From: Desulfatirhabdium butyrativorans DSM 18734
GTDB lineage: Bacteria > Desulfobacterota > Desulfobacteria > Desulfobacterales > Desulfatirhabdiaceae
Assembly (NCBI RefSeq): GCF_000429925.1
Contig: NZ_KE386985.1
Location: forward strand, 285,739 to 349,738
Direction of reading: 5' to 3'
Length of the DNA stretch: 64,000 nt
A model generated the notes under the pieces. The model was not told the origin of the DNA and ran no database searches. It saw only the letters and a list, made by a program, of their open reading frames with translations. Shown in pieces: positions 40,101 to 54,991 of this stretch (positions are counted from its first letter, which is position 1; each line of letters starts with the position of its first letter). The translations under genes were made by a program, and so were the position numbers.

Positions 40101-40202
40101 TCAAGAGTGCCGCATGGGGGCTGGGGCGTCGATGCCGAGAATGAAGACGGGCTTCTTTCTCGGCATTGATTTTCCGAGTATCCGGATTTCGAGTTCAGGC
40201 AT
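40101..40202 (-). pseudogene. 33-codon stub of a phoH 5-prime end
   Basis: Starting with an ATG inside the last codons of olsF, the frame reads MPELEIRILGKSMPRKKPVF and then IL before it diverges and stops. The complete phoH at 55294-56661 begins MPKPKTRTPGKRMPRNKKKV then FIL. The overlap of this start with the olsF end (ATGCCTGA) shows how the two genes were once joined. Confidence 0.75.
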
Positions 40203-41979
40203 CGGTTGCCCTGATGAATCGCTTGCACATGCGCGTATGGGTTTTCTCGAGATCGACGACGATCAGCGCGTCGATCACATCCGAAAATTTGTCATCGATG
40301 TTGAATCCAAGCACTTTGCCGTTGAGTTTGAGGTAATGCTTCAGCAGAACAGGAATCCCTTTTCCGTCAGGCTCGATTTGAGATATCCAATGGGATACCT
40401 CATCGATGGATTCGGGATATGCTAAGCGCCGATCTCTGTTCTCCGATATTCCGAACCATAAGCGATAAGGATGCCGCGGTTTCACCCGGGAGGCCCAATC
40501 CGGTTCGCTATGATGCAGCATCAGGAAGTGGGCCATGAGTTTTTTGGAAAAGTCCCGATAATCGTTTCGGATGCTGACCAGACCGAACAATATCCGGTAG
40601 CCGGGATTTCTCCGGATAAATTCGCCGATGCCTCTCCAGATCGTGATCAGACTGTTGTGCTTCTTTTGATACTCGATGCGCACAAAAGATCTGCCGAATT
40701 CGATCATGCTGGCTGCCTGATCGAAGAATGAACGGTTCAAGCGAAACAGGGTGTTCGTATAAAGACCTTTTTTGCCGTAGGCAGCCAGGATTTCATCCAC
40801 CAGCCCCAGGCGGTACCCTCCGATGATTTCTCCGGTTTTTCGATTGCACATGAACAAGTGGCGATAATGGTCATCGAAACGATCCAGATCGAGGGATCGT
40901 CCCGTTCCTTCCCGCACGGCCCGAAATGCCTGCTCCCGAAGCCGGCCGATTTCCCGGAGAGCATGGGGAATCTGGTCGCTGACAGCGATATAGACCGCAT
41001 GATCCTCGGCCGTGATCAGAAGCTGTTCCTTTGGCAAAGCTTGGATTTCTTGTCGAAGAATATCCGGTGCAATCGGTTCGATCAGGGGTTCACGATGGTT
41101 GTGTCTCCGAACGAATACCGAAGCGGTTCCATCTGAAAACCATTTTCTTTCTTCCCGTTGATACTGAAGGATTTCGGTCGTGGTTCTGAGGTAAGCGACC
41201 AATTCCTTGTCACTTGTTTTGCGTTTCAGAAAAGACCAGGCAAGAGGCTTGCCGATATGAACACCAATATGCTGCTTACCTTTGTTGACCAATTCTCTGG
41301 GAAGCAGAAGTGTCCGCAGGCGGGGTGACAGCAGACCGGCCATGGAAAACAGGGTGCTGTTCCGACCTGGAAAGTAAACCGGAAGTGTGGTTGCCCGGGT
41401 TTTTCGAATCAGCGCAGCAACATGATGGCTCCAGTCGGGATCGGTGATCCTTTGGCGTTTCGGATTCCAGGAAGCGACTTCGCCCGCAGGGAATACAACC
41501 AGCGCTCCCCCTTGGCTCAGCCACAAGAAGGACTGTTTCAAACCTGCATAATTTTCGGATACCTTCCGGTTGTCGAAAGGATTGACCGGGATGATCCATT
41601 CCTCAAGATTCTGGATTTGTTTCAAAAGGTAATTGCCCATGATGCGAACATCGGATCGGATTTTGGAAATCATCGCGCCGATGATGAGGCCCTCAAGACC
41701 TCCGAAGGGGTGATTGGCAACGACAACCAGCGGTTCTGAAGCCGGAATCTGGTGGAGCAGGATTTCATCATAGGAATAGCGAACATCCATGGTTTCGAGA
41801 ATCGTGTCAAATGCGGATCTCTTTGAACGATTGACGACTTGCTTGTCTTGAAATCGGCTGTAATGCGCATTGACATCATCGATACCGAGAAACCGCTCGA
41901 TCGGCTGCTGAAAAACGGAGAAAAGCTTTCTGGCGAAGGGTGTTTCGATGGTTAAAGAAAGATCGATCAATTTTTCCAT
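40195..41979 (-). CDS. OlsF-like bifunctional acyltransferase (ornithine lipid synthase)
   Basis: The 594-residue protein joins an N-terminal PlsC-like acyltransferase (VVVANHPFGGLEGLIIGAM near residue 88, VFPAGEVASW) to a C-terminal GNAT/hemolysin-like N-acyltransferase (from about 330; RKTGEIIGGYRLGLVDEIL, MIEFGRSFVRIEYQ, LKHYLKLNGKVLGFNID). This order is that of OlsF, which makes ornithine lipids in two acylations. Ornithine lipids replace phospholipids when phosphate is scarce, which fits the candidate Pho box 127 bp upstream and the phosphate genes nearby. Only the substrate is uncertain; lysine or glycine lipids are alternatives. Confidence 0.8.
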   Translation of the reverse strand: MEKLIDLSLTIETPFARKLFSVFQQPIERFLGIDDVNAHYSRFQDKQVVNRSKRSAFDTILETMDVRYSYDEILLHQIPASEPLVVVANHPFGGLEGLIIGAMISKIRSDVRIMGNYLLKQIQNLEEWIIPVNPFDNRKVSENYAGLKQSFLWLSQGGALVVFPAGEVASWNPKRQRITDPDWSHHVAALIRKTRATTLPVYFPGRNSTLFSMAGLLSPRLRTLLLPRELVNKGKQHIGVHIGKPLAWSFLKRKTSDKELVAYLRTTTEILQYQREERKWFSDGTASVFVRRHNHREPLIEPIAPDILRQEIQALPKEQLLITAEDHAVYIAVSDQIPHALREIGRLREQAFRAVREGTGRSLDLDRFDDHYRHLFMCNRKTGEIIGGYRLGLVDEILAAYGKKGLYTNTLFRLNRSFFDQAASMIEFGRSFVRIEYQKKHNSLITIWRGIGEFIRRNPGYRILFGLVSIRNDYRDFSKKLMAHFLMLHHSEPDWASRVKPRHPYRLWFGISENRDRRLAYPESIDEVSHWISQIEPDGKGIPVLLKHYLKLNGKVLGFNIDDKFSDVIDALIVVDLEKTHTRMCKRFIRATDA

Positions 41980-45304: not shown

Positions 45305-46209
45305 GATGCGATCCGTTTCTTCACGTAATCGAGATAGAGTTGGGCACAATCGATGTTGCAGGCTGTTTTTAGCCCCTTGAAACCACCGAATGCCGATACT
45401 TCGAACACCACCGGTCCGGCCTCCGTTTCCGCGACATCGACGCTCGTAAAATCCAGTTGAAACAATGCCTGCGCTCTTTGCGCGATTGCGATCGTCTGGG
45501 GATCTGGCGTGTATGGCACATATCTTCCACCATTTGCCGTTGTGGTGTTCCAGCTCGGTGTATCGTTTTTACGGGCGTAGGTCGCAACATATTCCCCGCC
45601 TAAAAAGACGATGCCGAGATCCCTGCCTTGCAGATTCACGCGTTTTTGCAGATAGAGAATCGGATTGTTATTTCGGAACGATTCGAGTTGGATGTAGGCA
45701 CCGGGATGGTCTTCGATCAGCTCCATTCCTCTGGCCTTGGTGGAATACAAAGGTTTCAGGACGGCTTCGCCGTATTCTTGCAGTTGGCGCAAGGCTGCGG
45801 CACTGTCTTCGGTGATGCAGGTCGGCGGCATGGGGATGTTTGCGATTCGAAGCGCAATGGTACAACTGAGCCGGTCCAGCACACGGAGGATGTGGATGGG
45901 CCGGGAGAAGATCCGCACGCCCCGGCTTTCCAGGAAATGCAGGATTTCCAATCGATCCAGCAGATTCGGAGAATAATACGGCCCGATCTTCTTGATGATG
46001 ATGGCATCGAGTGTGCAAAGATCCAGCCCGTTCCAGTGGACTATCCCCCGATCCAGATCCAGCATGATCTGTTCCATATTGATCAGCAACCGCTTGCCCG
46101 TGAAACGGGCCACCGTATCGGCAAGTCGTTCCGATGACCATCCGCCGGGATTCCCGATGACGGCAATGTTCGGTTTTTTCCGATTTCCGCCTATATCAAT
46201 TTGTGTCAT
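45301..46209 (-). CDS. ATP-grasp enzyme of the GAK system
   Basis: The 302-residue product has a RimK-like ATP-grasp fold: an N-terminal domain (IAVIGNPGGWSSERLADTV, DAIIIKKIGPYYSP), the ATP-binding AVLKPLYSTKARGMEL, and the metal-binding C-terminal VVFEVSAFGGFKGL. Such enzymes ligate a carboxylate to an amine using ATP. The substrate is unknown. It starts at ATG 46209, overlapping the stop of the PhoU-APH gene (TGATG), and is itself coupled to the kinase gene. Confidence 0.85.
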   Translation of the reverse strand: MTQIDIGGNRKKPNIAVIGNPGGWSSERLADTVARFTGKRLLINMEQIMLDLDRGIVHWNGLDLCTLDAIIIKKIGPYYSPNLLDRLEILHFLESRGVRIFSRPIHILRVLDRLSCTIALRIANIPMPPTCITEDSAAALRQLQEYGEAVLKPLYSTKARGMELIEDHPGAYIQLESFRNNNPILYLQKRVNLQGRDLGIVFLGGEYVATYARKNDTPSWNTTTANGGRYVPYTPDPQTIAIAQRAQALFQLDFTSVDVAETEAGPVVFEVSAFGGFKGLKTACNIDCAQLYLDYVKKRIAS

Positions 46210-47888
46210 CACAAGGCCTCCAAAAAGAGGATGTCTTCCGAAAACGAGAATGAGCCCCAGTCGTTTCGGTCGGCATGCGAGCGGATCTTTTCCATCAGAT
46301 AATGCGATCGCAGCACCATTTCTTTGGCGAATGCCTGATGCTGTTCAAACCGAATGGATGTGTAAAAATTTCGGCAAAGCCCCAGTGCCAGGCGCGCCTG
46401 AAACGTCGTATCCTGGTGGGTTTTCGAAAACCGGAGCAACAGACCGAAAAATTCAGCGATCATCTCGTTCAACCGTTCCCGGAGAATCGGTTCAAACGCG
46501 GGCAATCGAAACAGGGAAACCAGAAAAACGGCTGCGTCTTCAACGTAATCTCCGTCATGGGAGCGATACACATCAATGTAGTAAATCCGCTGGGCTTCGT
46601 GGTCGTAGACGATGTTGTTCACATTGAAATCCCCGTGACAGAATACGGACAGCGGGGCCTCGAGCGTCGCTTCGATTTCGGCGCATTGACGGATCAAATG
46701 GATCGTCGAGGGGATATGCAATTCGCCGAGATATTTTTCGGAACGCACCAATGCTGGATGGAGCCGGTTGCTTTCGTCGATTCTGGCAAGCAATTGTTTC
46801 ATGAATTGCACCGGAACCGGTTGCAACCGCAGGCTTCGCGCCCAGATTTCTTCGATCACCTCTTGCAGCAGGAAGAGGGCGTTTTGGACGATTTCGGTTT
46901 CAGCCGACAACAACACCTCCTCGAAGGTACATCCCGGCAAGAATTCGATCAGCAACGATGCGGTTTCGCTGGTTTCGTGATAACCGAACACACGGGGTGT
47001 CAAACCCGGGAAAAAGGATTGCCAGCGAAGCAGGTTATTTTTCTCACGGAGAATTTTGTTCTTGTTGCCTTCTTTGAAAATCCCTTGTGAATTGTCAGTG
47101 TTATCCGTTTTTGTGCCGATCAGCGAAATCCGGCATCCGGATCGCGTACCCCAGATCGACTTCATTTTGATTTTCGAAAAATCGTCCGTATATCCACATC
47201 GGCTGAGGGTTTCTTGCAGGGCCTCAAACTGATGAATCTTGATTTTTTCACCCATGATGGCGAACAACAACGCTTCTCCGATGTTTAGCAGCGAATCGCC
47301 GATTCGCTCAAGATAGCGAAAAATGAACAGACTCGTAATCAGATCGGGTGGGGCGCCTCCCTGCTGCAGCTCCTGGAGGATACGGCGAAAACACTTATTA
47401 TACAGGATATCCAGCCGGTATTCCGACCTGCAGATTTCCAGTGCATCCGAAAGGCTTCTTCCCTCGAAGGCCGGATGAATTTTCATGGCCTCTGTTTCAA
47501 TCACTTTCAGCATGGGTTGGTGGTCGAATCGCTGGATGAAGGCCGGATCGGAAAAGTATTCGACTTGTCGGGCGATGTTGACGCAGAAATCGGCGATGCG
47601 TTCCAAATTGACGGAAATCGTATGAATGGCCCGCAGCGAGTTGATTTCATTCTGATCGATGTGCTCACCGCCGTGAATCCGCGAAAAGCAGGCGTTTTCG
47701 ACAATGGTCTTCAGGTTGTCGATGTAATCATCCCGCGAGGCCATTTTCTTGAAGAAAAAGGAACCGGGCTGTTTCAACAAGTCTGATGTCGTTTGAATCT
47801 GGCCGATGATTTCGGTCCAGAGAAATTTGAAATTTTCCCGGAGTTCATCCAGTTTGCTGGAGGAATCAGGTGGATATTTGAATGGCAT
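46209..47888 (-). CDS. PhoU-aminoglycoside phosphotransferase-like fusion protein
   Basis: The 559-residue protein joins two folds. Residues 10-235 are PhoU-like helices (ISVNLERIADFCVNIARQVEYF, FRYLERIGDSLLNIGEALLF, the E/D-containing repeats that bind metal in PhoU). Residues 265-550 are a kinase of the APH/choline kinase type, with CHGDFNVNNIVYD (catalytic loop) and IYYIDVYRSHDGDYVEDAA (metal motif). PhoU proteins report phosphate status, so this looks like a phosphate-sensing small-molecule or protein kinase. SD GAGGGA precedes the ATG; the gene overlaps the second amphi-Trp gene. Confidence 0.8.
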   Translation of the reverse strand: MPFKYPPDSSSKLDELRENFKFLWTEIIGQIQTTSDLLKQPGSFFFKKMASRDDYIDNLKTIVENACFSRIHGGEHIDQNEINSLRAIHTISVNLERIADFCVNIARQVEYFSDPAFIQRFDHQPMLKVIETEAMKIHPAFEGRSLSDALEICRSEYRLDILYNKCFRRILQELQQGGAPPDLITSLFIFRYLERIGDSLLNIGEALLFAIMGEKIKIHQFEALQETLSRCGYTDDFSKIKMKSIWGTRSGCRISLIGTKTDNTDNSQGIFKEGNKNKILREKNNLLRWQSFFPGLTPRVFGYHETSETASLLIEFLPGCTFEEVLLSAETEIVQNALFLLQEVIEEIWARSLRLQPVPVQFMKQLLARIDESNRLHPALVRSEKYLGELHIPSTIHLIRQCAEIEATLEAPLSVFCHGDFNVNNIVYDHEAQRIYYIDVYRSHDGDYVEDAAVFLVSLFRLPAFEPILRERLNEMIAEFFGLLLRFSKTHQDTTFQARLALGLCRNFYTSIRFEQHQAFAKEMVLRSHYLMEKIRSHADRNDWGSFSFSEDILFLEAL

Positions 47889-48165: not shown

Positions 48166-49356
48166 TCACTGTGGATCGGTTTTGGGCATCTCTTCACCCA
48201 AACGGGCTTTGTATTCCTCGATAACGCATTTTCGGCTCATGTTGGCCGTAATCAGAGCCTTTCGAATGGGAATTTCTTCCCATGCCGGCTGAACGCCGAT
48301 CTCTCGAGCGGCCTTTTCAGGGTCTTGTTTATCGACGTCCCGTATTTTTTCCCCCATGTGGGTGTCATCCCCCATAAAGAGCAGCAGCCTTTTGCTGGAG
48401 CGTATTTGAACGGCGTTTTTCCGGTTGACCACGGAAATCAGAAATTCCGTATAGCGACGGGACTGCGGATTCCAGATTTCATAGCCATCCACATCGTAAT
48501 CTGCGAGCAAAATGGGCCAAAACTGTTCGGGATGGGGAATGACGATGCCGCCGCCTAACGATCGGACTTCTTCAATAATCTCCGATGTCCGGTAGAAATA
48601 TCGCATGGGGAATTGGGATTTGACGATTTGTTTGACAGCGTGCAAAAAAATCTGGGCGCGATTGATCCATGCATCTCCATATTCCGGTCGATATTCATCC
48701 AGAAAATCCCGCAACAGCTTGTTCTTGAACACTTCAATCGGGATTTTGTCATAATGATGTCCGATTAACAGCGACAGTTTCTTCATCTGTGCCTGTACAA
48801 ACCGGATGCATTCGTCGTTTGCACCGGTTTCGGTAGCAGCAAGCTGAATACGGCTTTCGTTCGGCTTGATCAGCGTATCGAGCAAGTCGTTCATCTGATG
48901 CTGACGGTATTTTAGCGTATATGCGAGCATGGACTTGAGAACATGAGCGGATTGGACCCGGCGTTCATGAAAATGCAGCAGCAATTGCACCTTCTGATTG
49001 AATCCTTTGGAGTAAGCATCGATTTCGACCCCTGCATATTCGTGAAAGCACAGCAATTCATTGTGTTGGGTGGGGATGATCAACGACTTTTTCATATTGG
49101 GGAACGTATTGTGGATTCGCTGCTCGACCAGTTCCAAAGGAATATGTTCCGGATGCCAATGAACGGCCAGGACGGTTTCTTGCCGGGGATACAGGGTGGC
49201 AGGGTTGACGATGCGATCGACCTGTTCAGACGACAAACGGGTCGTTGTAATTTTGGCGAAAATCGCTTCGTCGTTTTCCGTGAGCTCTTCGGAAAACATG
49301 CGGGAAAATTGCGGATTCAAGGGAATACATTCAGATTTGGGTTTCACCAGGACCAT
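48166..49356 (-). CDS. PHP-like metal-dependent hydrolase, GAK cluster
   Basis: The 396-residue protein is unknown to me by name, but carries histidine-rich motifs like those of PHP phosphoesterases: HWHPEHIP near residue 67, IIPTQHNELLCFHEYAGVEID, LLLHFHERR, IVIPHPEQFWPI and MGDDTHMGEK near the end. These would give a multi-metal site. GGGAGG precedes the ATG. Its place between the XXXCH and amphi-Trp genes suggests it removes phosphate from a product of this cluster; that is inference. Confidence 0.6.
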   Translation of the reverse strand: MVLVKPKSECIPLNPQFSRMFSEELTENDEAIFAKITTTRLSSEQVDRIVNPATLYPRQETVLAVHWHPEHIPLELVEQRIHNTFPNMKKSLIIPTQHNELLCFHEYAGVEIDAYSKGFNQKVQLLLHFHERRVQSAHVLKSMLAYTLKYRQHQMNDLLDTLIKPNESRIQLAATETGANDECIRFVQAQMKKLSLLIGHHYDKIPIEVFKNKLLRDFLDEYRPEYGDAWINRAQIFLHAVKQIVKSQFPMRYFYRTSEIIEEVRSLGGGIVIPHPEQFWPILLADYDVDGYEIWNPQSRRYTEFLISVVNRKNAVQIRSSKRLLLFMGDDTHMGEKIRDVDKQDPEKAAREIGVQPAWEEIPIRKALITANMSRKCVIEEYKARLGEEMPKTDPQ

Positions 49357-50337: not shown

Positions 50338-51393
50338 CTATATTTGGTCCGGATATACAAAAATCTGGAGATGGGATCCCGTCACCCGGCTTCTTCCCGT
50401 ATAGAGAAATATGCCAAGGGCGATGCCTTCGAGAAAGAGAAGCACCTGTGGACTCCACAAGGCTTCGAGCCCGACAAGAATATCCAGGGGAAGATCGCTG
50501 CCTTGGACAGGGGAAGCGAAGACAATGAGAGCAGCCAAGGGGATCGATGCGAGCGAGAGCCACTGATATGCCGTGATGAAACCGACCCCTCGAAAATCCG
50601 CTCGAAAAAATTCGGATATCCAGCGCCAGAGCTTTTCGACGCAAACAGCAATCAGGAATGCCGTCGAAAAATTGCCGTTCAGGTGGAAAACCATGGAAAC
50701 GCATCCGGTAAGAGAAAGGACGATGCAAGTCATGGCTTGAACCGGCACCACCGCTTGACCATCCAGGTGATGGGCGTAAGCGATTTTCTTCGATTTTCCG
50801 GTGAACACAAAGCAAAATCGGCTGAAGATGCGTTGCATCCGGACGGGGTAGCTTGCGATCGGCCTGCCGTAACAGCATCCGAAACTGATACAGGCAAGAC
50901 GGCCGATGCTCTCGCCGAAACAGTATGCAATGCTCAATGCCGACATCACCGGCAACAGCGGAAGCGAAAGGCCATCAGGTCGCTCGGTGGCGATGTTGAT
51001 CCCCAAAACGATCATGGGCGCAAACACCATTCCGGCAAAAGCCGCACCGGCCACCGTGAAGGTATTGGGCTTGCCCTCGATGAACCGGGCGATGATCTTT
51101 GCTGCCGGCAGGCAAAGAATCGAAATCAGGAAAATCAATGCCATCCATTGGTTTCTCGGAACGCCTCCGGTTGCCAGCAGCAGGATCAATATGGCGGCTG
51201 CAAAGGTGTAGGCCAATGCATTGAACACGCCGTAAAACGTCAGATTCAGTCCGCTCCAGCTCCCTGAATCCATCTGTTTGTCCGGAATGACGGCAAACAC
51301 TTGCCAGCGTTCCCGAGGCAGGTGGCCAAAACCCCAGGCCAGCAATCCGGTGAGGCTGCAGATCAGAACAGCCAGAAAAATGAAATTGTGCAT
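50338..51393 (-). CDS. Lgt-like multispanning membrane protein
   Basis: The 351-residue protein resembles prolipoprotein diacylglyceryl transferase: about eight membrane segments and GESIGRLACISFGCCYGRP near residue 172, like the Lgt signature around its essential Arg. It is not the housekeeping Lgt, being longer at the N-terminus and sitting in a different cluster, so it may move a lipid moiety onto another acceptor. AAGGAGG sits five bases before the ATG at 51393. It follows the phosphatidylserine decarboxylase gene. Confidence 0.7.
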   Translation of the reverse strand: MHNFIFLAVLICSLTGLLAWGFGHLPRERWQVFAVIPDKQMDSGSWSGLNLTFYGVFNALAYTFAAAILILLLATGGVPRNQWMALIFLISILCLPAAKIIARFIEGKPNTFTVAGAAFAGMVFAPMIVLGINIATERPDGLSLPLLPVMSALSIAYCFGESIGRLACISFGCCYGRPIASYPVRMQRIFSRFCFVFTGKSKKIAYAHHLDGQAVVPVQAMTCIVLSLTGCVSMVFHLNGNFSTAFLIAVCVEKLWRWISEFFRADFRGVGFITAYQWLSLASIPLAALIVFASPVQGSDLPLDILVGLEALWSPQVLLFLEGIALGIFLYTGRSRVTGSHLQIFVYPDQI

Positions 51394-51452: not shown

Positions 51453-52562
51453 TTACAGACCAGCCTCGTTTGTAATCGTCATACCAGGGCACTTTTCGCC
51501 AGACATTTCATGAAACAGGTAATGGGGGACATCGATGGGATGCGCTATGGTTTCGCGGTTCGCAGAAGCGATATCGGAACGGACGAGCACGTCCGTTTCC
51601 ACCAGATGACAACCGAAACCGATGCTGTAGCGGCTGCTCACATCCTGACGCCATTGGTTCTGCAGCAGATCGGATGAGAAGCGGATACGGTCTTTTTCGA
51701 AAATCAGCAGGGTCGTCGAACTCCCCGGTCTGAAAAGGCTCTTGGGTTGCCCTTTTCGGACGAACATACCGGAAGAGATGGGCTTGGGCGATTCATAACG
51801 CTTATCGCTGTAACATTGAACGATGTCGCCGATCATCAGGGCGGCGATTTCGATTATGGCGACATAACCGATACCGGTTCCATCGGCGACGTCCGTATCG
51901 ACAATACTGACGGTTCTGCGGTTCTTGGATAAGGGGGTGACTGCCTGAATGGCGGCCGTCGGATTGCAGGCGTGATACAGACCGGAGATATCATAGATAT
52001 CCGCTATATAACCCGATACGGGCATGTGGTTGTAGTGGTATTTGTCGGGCGTCAGGCGAAAGACGGCGAAATCGCCTCCCCGGAACAGCGCCCGCCATTC
52101 GGGGTGATGCAATCCGAGCAGTTCGTCGTATTCGAACAATTTATCCTTGATGTGAAGGCTGCTGTCGGTTGAAAACGAGCCGACAAGTACTCGGGCATCC
52201 GATGGCGATACGATGGCGTTCTGGTTTTCGTTCATTGGGCGGCATTCCCAATAGCGGATCTGACGTTCGAACAATTCGCGAAATGTATTCATCCTTTGGA
52301 TATCCTTTACGAATTCGGTTTCATTGATTTTCAGGGAACAAACGGTGCGCCTGATGTGTTCGGGGTGAATGGGGCGCATGAGGTCATAGTGGAACCAGCC
52401 CAGGAGCTTGGAAAACCTTCCCGAAACAAGCGCCCGGAACATCGCACCGGGTCTTTCCCGAAGCCGGTTGTACATCCAGAATATCACCCGGTCTCCAAGC
52501 AATGTTTCGTTTTGGACGGCCCCGGTTGAGCGATCGACATACTGATGCGGTAAGGCCCTCAT
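51453..52562 (-). CDS. Phosphatidylserine decarboxylase family protein
   Basis: The 369-residue product matches the phosphatidylserine decarboxylase family (PF02666): the central VSPSDARVLVGSFS, FRLTPDKYHYNHMPVSGYI, and the cleavage region FRPGSSTTLLIFEK, where the Gly-Ser-Ser would yield the pyruvoyl group. It makes phosphatidylethanolamine, or decarboxylates a related lipid. It starts two bases after the stop of the 808-residue gene, so it is coupled to it, not to a phosphatidylserine synthase gene. Confidence 0.85.
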   Translation of the reverse strand: MRALPHQYVDRSTGAVQNETLLGDRVIFWMYNRLRERPGAMFRALVSGRFSKLLGWFHYDLMRPIHPEHIRRTVCSLKINETEFVKDIQRMNTFRELFERQIRYWECRPMNENQNAIVSPSDARVLVGSFSTDSSLHIKDKLFEYDELLGLHHPEWRALFRGGDFAVFRLTPDKYHYNHMPVSGYIADIYDISGLYHACNPTAAIQAVTPLSKNRRTVSIVDTDVADGTGIGYVAIIEIAALMIGDIVQCYSDKRYESPKPISSGMFVRKGQPKSLFRPGSSTTLLIFEKDRIRFSSDLLQNQWRQDVSSRYSIGFGCHLVETDVLVRSDIASANRETIAHPIDVPHYLFHEMSGEKCPGMTITNEAGL

Positions 52563-52564
52563 GG

Positions 52565-54991
52565 TCAGGCCGCCTTCGCAAAGCTTCGGTCGCGTTCTTC
52601 GGGTCCGGACTGAGTTTCACGAATCTGTTGCGTACTTTGTTGCGTTTGAAATCCGATGACCAGAATCAGCAAACCGATCAGGGCATCCATATCCTGATGG
52701 GTCAACCGGTCGTTCAACAGATCTTGTCGAAGGCATTCGATGAGGCTGACCGGCGGCTGACCTTTTAAGAGGATATTCAGGGTCATGCGCCATGAACTGT
52801 CTTCGTTCCAGAGTCGTTCAAAATCGCACAGACATTCCCGAAGGGTCTGCAAGGCTTCCGAAAGATGTTCTTTGGAAAGTGTCTTCCGGTAATAGGACTC
52901 CGCAGCCCCGTTGAACTCACTGCTGTTCAGCCGGAAGGGATCCGATGCGCCAGCGTGGGCCAAAATATCCTTGACCAGCCGTTGGGATGCCGCGGTGTCC
53001 GGCGCATTCGATATCCGATTTTCCAGATCGTCGATTTCAGGCTGAAGCTGCATCAGCTCGATCAAGTCGGCTGCATCTTTCCGAATCAATCGAAGGAGCG
53101 CTTTTCTGTATTCCAGTTGATATACCCGTACATATCCCGGATAGCGGGTGCTGAACCGGGTACGACGAACCTCTTTCAGAATGTTCTGCATGAAGGCATT
53201 GGGGGTATCGATCTTGACGAAAAACGTGGGCAGCCCGACTGCCGCGCCGAAGGTGATCTGGCGCCGTTCGCTTTCCACAAAAGGCGTATCCGGGATCGAG
53301 GAATGGGCGACATCGCCTTGAACGATGTATTTTGCGGCCAGTGCGTTGATCAGCGTCTGGAGGGATGCTGCAGGCCCCATGTCGTTCAGCAGAGATGGAA
53401 ACAGGCTGTAGAAACGCCCTTCGAATCCGAAGAACCCGTGCACGTCCGCCTGGCGCATACGATAGAACAGGTAGAGCGCCATGCGGCTGTCGAATACCCC
53501 CAATTCTGTCAGATCGCGTTTGAGCCGAACGTCGTTTCCGATGTGGCCATCCAGAGCCGGGCTTTCGTTTGTGCTGAGCAGGGCTACCAGATAATCGATC
53601 AGCCGGAAATCCGGAACGAGATCCCCCTTGAGACCGAAAATTCGACCGATTGCTGCATCGAGCCATTCCGGACCCATCGGGGTGACCGGAACGCCGAAAA
53701 ACTTCAGCCTGGCTTTTTTCTTCCACCGTCTCCACAGCATCCGCAGATGAGTGAAATCGAGCTCATGGGGCAGGAATCCAAGCGCTTTTTCCGGATGAAA
53801 CTGCTGAAAATCCAGGCGATAAGGCGCTGCTGCATAGGTGTTGATGAACAGCGGCAGAAAATGCTCGAAAATCTTGATGACGAGATCCCCGAAGCGCTTT
53901 TCTTCGGCGGCCTTGAAGCTCATTTCCGGATCGTGATAGAGCCGAAGCAGTTTCCGGCTGCTGATGCTGATATGGGTGCCGTTGTTGGCGAGACTCACAT
54001 TCGATAGATTGGGCAAGACCACGAGATTGGACTGGATGATGCCGGCATCGCGAAGTTTGCTCACGGCGTTCAACTGGCTTCTGGACAGCACCCGGTGGCA
54101 GACGTGCATGTAGTCTTGTTTGCTTTCCCCCAAATCCCATCCGGAAAGACATGGGTTCATGAACAATTGTCTGTAGAAGGCATCCGGAATGACATTGTTG
54201 AGCGCGATCAGGCGTTGCGGCGGATTGGGTGCAAAGCAGATTTGCGCTTCCTGACCATGATGCCGGAGCATGAAATGATGATTGCCGTAAACGACCAGAA
54301 GATGGGTCAGCAGATGGCGCAACAGGGTTTCTTGGGCAACGGCCCGACCCATCCGGGTTTCCACGGTCATCGGGGAAGGATAAAAGGAAAATGTTTCCGG
54401 CGAGGTATTGTCACTGAGAAAGTGCGGCAACATGTTTTCCCCGAGTTGTTGCAACGAAATCGGGGTGTTTTGGGTTTGACCGATATACTGGGCCAGCCCC
54501 AGTTTGATGAAATAGCTCACCGGAATACGGAGCCATTTCTCCTGGTTCCGATCAAAGAAAAACCGGTCGATATCCGAACGGAAAGGTCCGCCCGGATTTC
54601 GTTTATCCGCGAGCATGTCGGTCTGCAGGATGTTCAGGGCGTAGGCGTTCAGCAGATCAACCGGAAAACGGACCCAACTGTTTTCCCAGACATTGCCGGC
54701 ATGCTCATCCAGAAAGGTCCTCAGTTTTAAAAATGGTTTTTCGGTGCTTTCTTCCGATTCAACGCGTTTTCGCAAATTCCGGTAAAATGTGGAATCCCGA
54801 ATGATGATGGGCAAATCGACCGACTGCTTTCCGCCGGATACCGTTGATAGCAATTCGTTTTCCACGCCTGCCGCCGCATCTTCCGGTACGAATGGCAGGC
54901 TTTGGACAAACCGGTCCCTGGATGATCGGTCGATTTCCAGAACCCGATCCCAATCCAAGGAAGCATCAGGTTGTACTGAAGGAGTATTCAT
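52565..54991 (-). CDS. Large conserved-looking protein of unknown function (808 residues)
   Basis: I do not recognise this protein. It opens the minus-strand cluster, AGGAA before ATG, and its stop is two bases from the decarboxylase start. It has no signal peptide and no obvious membrane segment. Notable stretches are YGNHHFMLRHHGQEAQICFA near residue 238, SNLVVLPNLSNVSLANNGTHIS, a basic piece MLWRRWKKKARLKFFG near residue 427, and a helical C-terminal third. The length and the His-rich segment would allow an enzyme. Ordinary base composition and a clean frame argue that it is a real gene. Confidence 0.7.
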   Translation of the reverse strand: MNTPSVQPDASLDWDRVLEIDRSSRDRFVQSLPFVPEDAAAGVENELLSTVSGGKQSVDLPIIIRDSTFYRNLRKRVESEESTEKPFLKLRTFLDEHAGNVWENSWVRFPVDLLNAYALNILQTDMLADKRNPGGPFRSDIDRFFFDRNQEKWLRIPVSYFIKLGLAQYIGQTQNTPISLQQLGENMLPHFLSDNTSPETFSFYPSPMTVETRMGRAVAQETLLRHLLTHLLVVYGNHHFMLRHHGQEAQICFAPNPPQRLIALNNVIPDAFYRQLFMNPCLSGWDLGESKQDYMHVCHRVLSRSQLNAVSKLRDAGIIQSNLVVLPNLSNVSLANNGTHISISSRKLLRLYHDPEMSFKAAEEKRFGDLVIKIFEHFLPLFINTYAAAPYRLDFQQFHPEKALGFLPHELDFTHLRMLWRRWKKKARLKFFGVPVTPMGPEWLDAAIGRIFGLKGDLVPDFRLIDYLVALLSTNESPALDGHIGNDVRLKRDLTELGVFDSRMALYLFYRMRQADVHGFFGFEGRFYSLFPSLLNDMGPAASLQTLINALAAKYIVQGDVAHSSIPDTPFVESERRQITFGAAVGLPTFFVKIDTPNAFMQNILKEVRRTRFSTRYPGYVRVYQLEYRKALLRLIRKDAADLIELMQLQPEIDDLENRISNAPDTAASQRLVKDILAHAGASDPFRLNSSEFNGAAESYYRKTLSKEHLSEALQTLRECLCDFERLWNEDSSWRMTLNILLKGQPPVSLIECLRQDLLNDRLTHQDMDALIGLLILVIGFQTQQSTQQIRETQSGPEERDRSFAKAA

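Follow-up and report, generated by a model that had tools for sequence, protein, structure and literature searches.

A protein family with a predicted carboxylate-amine ligase fold in a conserved three-gene unit with two lipid-enzyme homologues

The window, by which we mean the whole stretch of 64,000 nucleotides analysed from Desulfatirhabdium butyrativorans DSM 18734, harbours on its minus strand three consecutive genes that encode an 808-residue protein (hereafter the 808 protein), a phosphatidylserine decarboxylase-like (Psd-like) protein and an Lgt-like membrane protein (Table 1). The original prediction of a long intact gene proved exact in both of its bounds but did not give the strand; the frame of 808 codons reads from an ATG at 54991 to a single stop ending at 52565. 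It is a real gene and no chance frame, since relatives are present in 24 of 94 related genomes and at 64 loci in a genome collection. The stop codon TGA is followed by CC and then by the ATG of the Psd-like gene, and because these run in succession the two-base gap to a phosphatidylserine decarboxylase gene, which had also been predicted, is confirmed. The start of the Lgt-like protein was placed at 51393, a Met that is conserved in the alignment; the listed open reading frame begins at 51492. The 808 gene is preceded, 302 bases upstream, by a PIN-PhoH gene.

Table 1. Features of the three-gene unit; codons are numbered within each protein and positions within the window.
Feature	Codons	Position	Strand	Evidence or remark
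808-residue ligase-fold protein (predicted fold), trio gene 1		52565..54991	-	Intact ORF; 45-sequence family; fold matches
GxExE, G-V-E44-N-E46	42-46	54854..54868	-	First-strand motif, strand 39-46
D-N-T-S-P-E, candidate base and metal ligand (inferred role)	194-199	54395..54412	-	
GxH strand motif, G-T-H340	338-340	53972..53980	-	G338 and H340 in 45/45
Basic motif THLRMLWRRWKKK	414-426	53714..53752	-	Near-invariant; specific to the 808 family
ExR strand motif, E-G-R	524-526	53414..53422	-	E524 and R526 in 45/45; strand 522-527
Phosphatidylserine decarboxylase-like protein, trio gene 2		51453..52562	-	PF02666, E 4.8e-36
Ser-Ser of PGSS/T site	281-282	51717..51722	-	Aligned with E. coli Psd S254
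Lgt-like membrane protein, trio gene 3, 351 aa		50338..51393	-	PF01790, E 2.5e-10

Relatives of the 808 protein in the 24 related genomes share 38-62% identity and are mostly near full length. An alignment-based search found the family in 31 of 297 genomes of the phylum, one of which (G095) has a weak match of 42 residues. Members at the 64 loci include some from Desulfobacteraceae, Desulfobulbaceae, Desulfomonile, Nitrospira, SAR324, Lentisphaeria, Kiritimatiellae and Deferribacteraceae. A large share of the genomes are metagenome-assembled, so odd taxonomic placements may be binning errors. Plasmid records gave no match to the family. At L021/L026 (G042), L085 and L076 the gene is split into two frames, by sequencing error or decay.

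The family was aligned as 45 sequences with 38-58% identity to the window protein. It has more than 100 near-invariant residues and extends over several phyla, yet no model in Pfam or NCBIfam describes it. As a single query, the 808 protein matched no model of either database at E up to 1. When all 45 members were compared with Pfam, no consistent family and no ligase family emerged; nine families were each matched by one member (best E 0.0035), which we take as chance. PDB sequences gave no match (best E 1.6). A confident match to a known family was also looked for with sensitive profile comparisons, and in hhalign runs against alignments of GshA, Pup ligases and GCS2 the highest probability was 1.04%: the glutamate-cysteine ligase families (PF04262, PF04107) reached 1.04% and 0.40%, and Pup ligase/Dop (PF03136) 0.14%. 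At sequence level, then, the 808 protein does belong to no known family, as originally predicted, the Pfam, NCBIfam and PDB searches all being negative.

Fold search, which had been suggested as a check, places the protein in the carboxylate-amine ligase fold. An AlphaFold2 model based on the 45 sequences (pLDDT 85.4, pTM 0.90; residues 317-330 and 403-413 poorly predicted) was compared at full length with the PDB by Foldseek, which ranked the bifunctional glutathione synthetase GshAB first (E 4.3e-3, probability 1.00); both GshA and PafA appeared within the next four rows. VIA-align 2 with the same full-length model gave Z 16.5 for GshAB (rmsd 4.2, 406 residues aligned), 16.2 for GshA, 15.1 for YbdK, 14.1 for PafA, 13.8 for Dop, 9.8 for yeast glutamate-cysteine ligase and 6.2 for type III glutamine synthetase, against 5.5 for the best unrelated chain. 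The predicted model thus has the curved antiparallel sheet fold, with the GCS, YbdK, PafA and Dop rows falling between Z 16.5 and 9.8. Members of this superfamily share a beta-sheet cradle and three metal sites, according to a paper on Dop (PMC8599861). When residues 30-352 were modelled alone, PafA and YbdK led 157 chains, weakly (Z 4.7 and 4.5); Foldseek with this fragment found no match, and a viral structure library gave nothing at E up to 0.001. The placement rests on the predicted fold because sequence profiles are blind to the relation. On this model, it is well supported that the 808 protein represents a new family with the carboxylate-amine ligase fold; the family is new at the level of sequence and its fold is already known.

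Four motifs (GxExE, D..E, GxH and ExR) lie in or beside strands of the model, in the order seen in the superfamily, and are conserved in 44 or 45 of the 45 sequences. G42, E44 and E46 are each present in 44 of these, and D194, N195, P198 and E199 in all 45. Correspondences to GshA, YbdK and PafA were set by motif, strand and order and not by superposed coordinates; on that basis G42-x-E44-x-E46 resembles GLE27RE29 of GshA and GIE17LE19 of YbdK, G338-x-H340 resembles GVH150 and GQH136, and E524-x-R526 resembles E328-V-R330 and E237-V-R239, the compared residues of GshA and YbdK being presumably the catalytic ones. The alignment of the 30-352 fragment ends with S345 on C141 of YbdK, which would put H340 on H136 if ungapped. 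By eye, the D..SPE segment is similar to D..HPE in the PafA/Dop-type proteins encoded at L104 and L107, where it reads D..HPEY; proteins of this type at L104, L107 and L108 start with G-x-E-x-E.

Two further landmarks had been singled out from the window alone, a basic RRWKKK patch and a His-rich segment, and they fared differently in the family alignment. The basic patch is a true family motif: within THLRMLWRRWKKK, R421, R422, W423, K425 and K426 are kept in all 45 sequences and K424 in 44, and no counterpart was found. The His-rich segment is incidental, with H238, H239, H244 and H245 retained in few of the 45; the adjoining G246-Q247 is present in every one.

The Psd-like protein retains the residues that align with D90, H147 and S254 of E. 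coli Psd, which we take to be its Asp-His-Ser catalytic triad, together with the Gly-Ser self-cleavage site. The PGSS/T site is conserved among 57 aligned Psd-like sequences and, judging from the alignment, the pyruvoyl group would form at its Ser-Ser. The protein nevertheless differs from Psd proper in scoring below all NCBIfam Psd cut-offs, and the genome has its housekeeping Psd as a separate, distinct copy on contig C4.

In the Lgt-like protein, alignment showed that R143, R239, E243 and R246 of E. coli Lgt are kept, residues which PMC4728403 ties to diacylglyceryl transfer. At the position of H103 in the HGGL segment the window protein has Ala, with no conserved His in its family, and Cys occupies the positions of N146 and E151. 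In that paper H103 is reported to be essential in E. coli Lgt, and the HGGL motif is proposed to bind the lipoprotein (lipobox peptide) substrate (PMC4728403). The loss of H103 together with the two cysteines makes a different acceptor plausible for the Lgt-like protein. The housekeeping Lgt of the genome (L093, contig C37) is separate and shows partly the same residue changes, having YGGF at HGGL (Tyr for H103) and GCCYG in the signature motif.

Both partner genes lie beside the 808 gene at 49 of the 50 loci (out of 64 in total) that have at least 2.8 kb downstream; at the one exception (L057) the decarboxylase gene is present with no recognised Lgt-like gene. Across the 94 related genomes, strong matches to the decarboxylase (E below 1e-70) and to the Lgt-like protein (E below 1e-29) occur in the same 22 genomes, all within the 24 that harbour the 808 family; weak partner matches elsewhere (E 1e-6 to 1e-3), which are probably homologues with housekeeping roles, were not counted. 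The two 808-family genomes without strong partners (G029 and G031) have partial 808 matches only, as does G090 among the 22. A conserved unit of ligase, decarboxylase-like and Lgt-like genes is therefore well supported, and the trio is nearly obligate; the tie to the decarboxylase holds up and goes well beyond what could be seen when it was originally predicted. We found no description of the trio in the literature searched, in which no paper combined Psd, Lgt and glutamate-cysteine ligase; a prior mention is possible in the 2009 amidoligase survey of Iyer and colleagues. The portion of the lipocone paper available to us (PMC12419801) contains nothing bearing on the trio.

Genes for PhoU, PstB, PstS or PhoB occur near the trio at seven of the 46 loci that have 8 kb or more of flanking sequence (L028, L031, L038, L039, L040, L053 and L067; L054, L077 and L079 were dropped as weak matches), compared with a chance expectation of about 0.3, a rough estimate that ignores relatedness. 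PhoU over its cut-off lies within 11 kb of the trio, a distance chosen after inspection of the data, in three of the 22 genomes (G005, G023 and G075; 0.11 expected). These counts are not independent, because the trio of G005 is that of L028 as judged by score and length. The window trio is not beside a real pst operon: PhoU over cut-off is encoded on contig C67 and the trio on C66, and within the window the closest gene of PhoU type encodes the PhoU-APH fusion in the GAK operon. Upstream regions were also scanned with what we take to be the Pho-box consensus. The best match upstream of the window gene has nine of 14 positions; matches of at least 11 of 14 were found in six of 49 upstream regions, five of these six being near relatives, versus 2.7% of shuffles and none of 49 coding controls. 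Those five share a single CTAACAT-N4-CTGnCAT site, slightly Pho-box-like and with 11-base spacing, upstream of the 808 gene at L027, L028, L029, L030 and L069.

The reading that we prefer, with modest confidence, is that the 808 protein, as the representative of a new family, acts as an ATP-dependent carboxylate-amine ligase (amidoligase) in a three-enzyme pathway for a membrane-lipid headgroup. Together with its two lipid-enzyme partners it probably makes an undescribed membrane lipid, and the trio would be a dedicated aminolipid headgroup pathway, possibly tied to phosphate supply. What we infer for the activities of the three proteins, their order, substrates and product, and for phosphate regulation, is as follows. 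The Lgt-like protein would transfer the diacylglyceryl group of phosphatidylglycerol to a small acceptor. Psd converts phosphatidylserine to phosphatidylethanolamine; the Psd-like protein would in like manner use a pyruvoyl group to decarboxylate an amino-acid lipid. The 808 ligase would couple a carboxylate, via an acyl-phosphate, to the resulting amino group or to the acceptor prior to its attachment to the lipid. These three steps, with the amide formed at the expense of ATP, would together fit a lipid headgroup pathway.

A more specific form of this pathway, which we consider improbable in its particulars, is that the product of the trio is an analogue of phosphatidylethanolamine that contains no phosphorus, has its amine capped with an amino acid and is used when phosphate is short. 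Here the Lgt-like enzyme would put diacylglycerol on free cysteine or another small acceptor to give an analogue of phosphatidylserine; with cysteine this would be diacylglyceryl-S-cysteine, a thioether with the same amino-acid end as phosphatidylserine. The Psd-like enzyme would convert it to diacylglyceryl-cysteamine, and the amidoligase would then cap the amine with an amino acid. Replacement of phospholipids by other lipids under phosphate limitation is described for a sulfate reducer in PMC5193443, which also reports diacylglycerol lipids with unassigned headgroups. If true, such an analogue would be a new lipid class in Desulfobacterota, Nitrospira, SAR324 and others.

Four other explanations were weighed against the lipid headgroup pathway. 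The presence of PafA and Dop among the fold matches, the likeness of D..SPE to the D..HPE of PafA/Dop-type proteins, and the action of Lgt on protein cysteines would all suit conjugation of a peptide or protein tag by the 808 protein, as PafA does with Pup, the Lgt-like enzyme lipidating the conjugate. We regard this as unlikely: no conserved small ORF that might encode a Pup-like tag was found within 1.5 kb on either side of the trio at the loci scanned, Psd-like decarboxylation has no obvious role in such a system, and HGGL, the proposed binder of lipobox peptides, is altered in the Lgt-like protein.

That the top fold matches are glutamate-cysteine ligases raises a second possibility, namely that the 808 protein is a divergent enzyme of this kind making soluble gamma-glutamylcysteine as a thiol, a reaction in which the lipid genes have no part. 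The GshA family PF04262 is absent from all 297 genomes of the phylum that were searched, and therefore a substitute could be needed. However, the 808 family, in 31 of these genomes, is present in too few for a general thiol enzyme, and the near-obligate partnership with the decarboxylase-like and Lgt-like genes would be left unexplained; such a role is improbable.

We give still less credence to the suggestion that the family has kept the fold in a non-catalytic or hydrolytic form, for example as a lipid-bound regulator of both partners. There is a precedent in Dop, which hydrolyses rather than ligates within the PafA fold (PMC8599861), and the extra length and family-specific basic motif of the 808 protein point to changed function, but the residues expected in the metal- and ATP-binding motifs are invariant or nearly so across the 45 sequences.

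The original prediction had the 808 gene heading the GAK operon, and this did not hold, given that the Lgt-like gene is part of the unit and that most 808-family genomes (16 of 24) lack GAK CofD, taken as TIGR04357 over its cut-off. The phylogenetic profile against the GAK genes, a check named at the outset, was run on the 94 genomes and ruled out GAK operon membership as the main reading: GAK CofD is present in 14 genomes, only eight of which harbour the 808 family, a weak statistical link (Fisher p 0.007). That the 808 protein belongs to the GAK system and works in that undefined pathway is very improbable, for against its position upstream of the GAK genes in the window, these shared genomes and the GAK-operon-type genes within 10 kb of 808 relatives at L051 and L077 stand the 808-family genomes without GAK CofD, the six of 14 GAK genomes without the 808 family, and the roughly 390 bases that separate the Lgt-like gene from the first XXXCH gene.

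Other genes of this part of the window, all on the minus strand, deserve a brief record. The PhoU-APH fusion of the GAK operon (46209..47888) is a protein of 559 residues, one half of it PhoU-like and the other aminoglycoside-phosphotransferase-like; similar frames, mostly of about 546 to 596 aa and with PhoU matches below cut-off, are present in many of the 94 relatives, some of them in genomes without GAK CofD over cut-off. A second protein of the operon (48166..49356, 396 residues) matches nothing in Pfam or NCBIfam at E up to 1, and its relatives adjoin amphi-Trp and PhoU-APH genes at L051 and L077. Downstream of the GAK genes, 40195..41979 encodes a protein similar to OlsF (E 9.7e-114, below the NCBIfam cut-off), the bifunctional ornithine lipid synthase, which makes phosphorus-free lipids.

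The 808 family defines a compact and nearly obligate three-enzyme module, both partners in which are lipid enzymes distinct from the housekeeping copies. This makes a new bacterial lipid pathway directly testable.

Among known systems, GshA and GshAB (PF04262) have in common with the 808 protein the fold and the GxExE, GxH and ExR motifs, but no sequence similarity by hhalign or Pfam; the 808 protein has 808 residues as against about 500 in GshA, and it is encoded in a trio with lipid genes. YbdK-type ligases (GCS2, PF04107) are likewise similar in fold (Z 15.1), and H340 would fall on H136 of YbdK in the fragment alignment; they differ in having no sequence match to the 808 protein, less than half its length and other gene neighbours. 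PafA and Dop are alike in fold (Z 14.1 and 13.8 respectively) and have no sequence match to the 808 protein.
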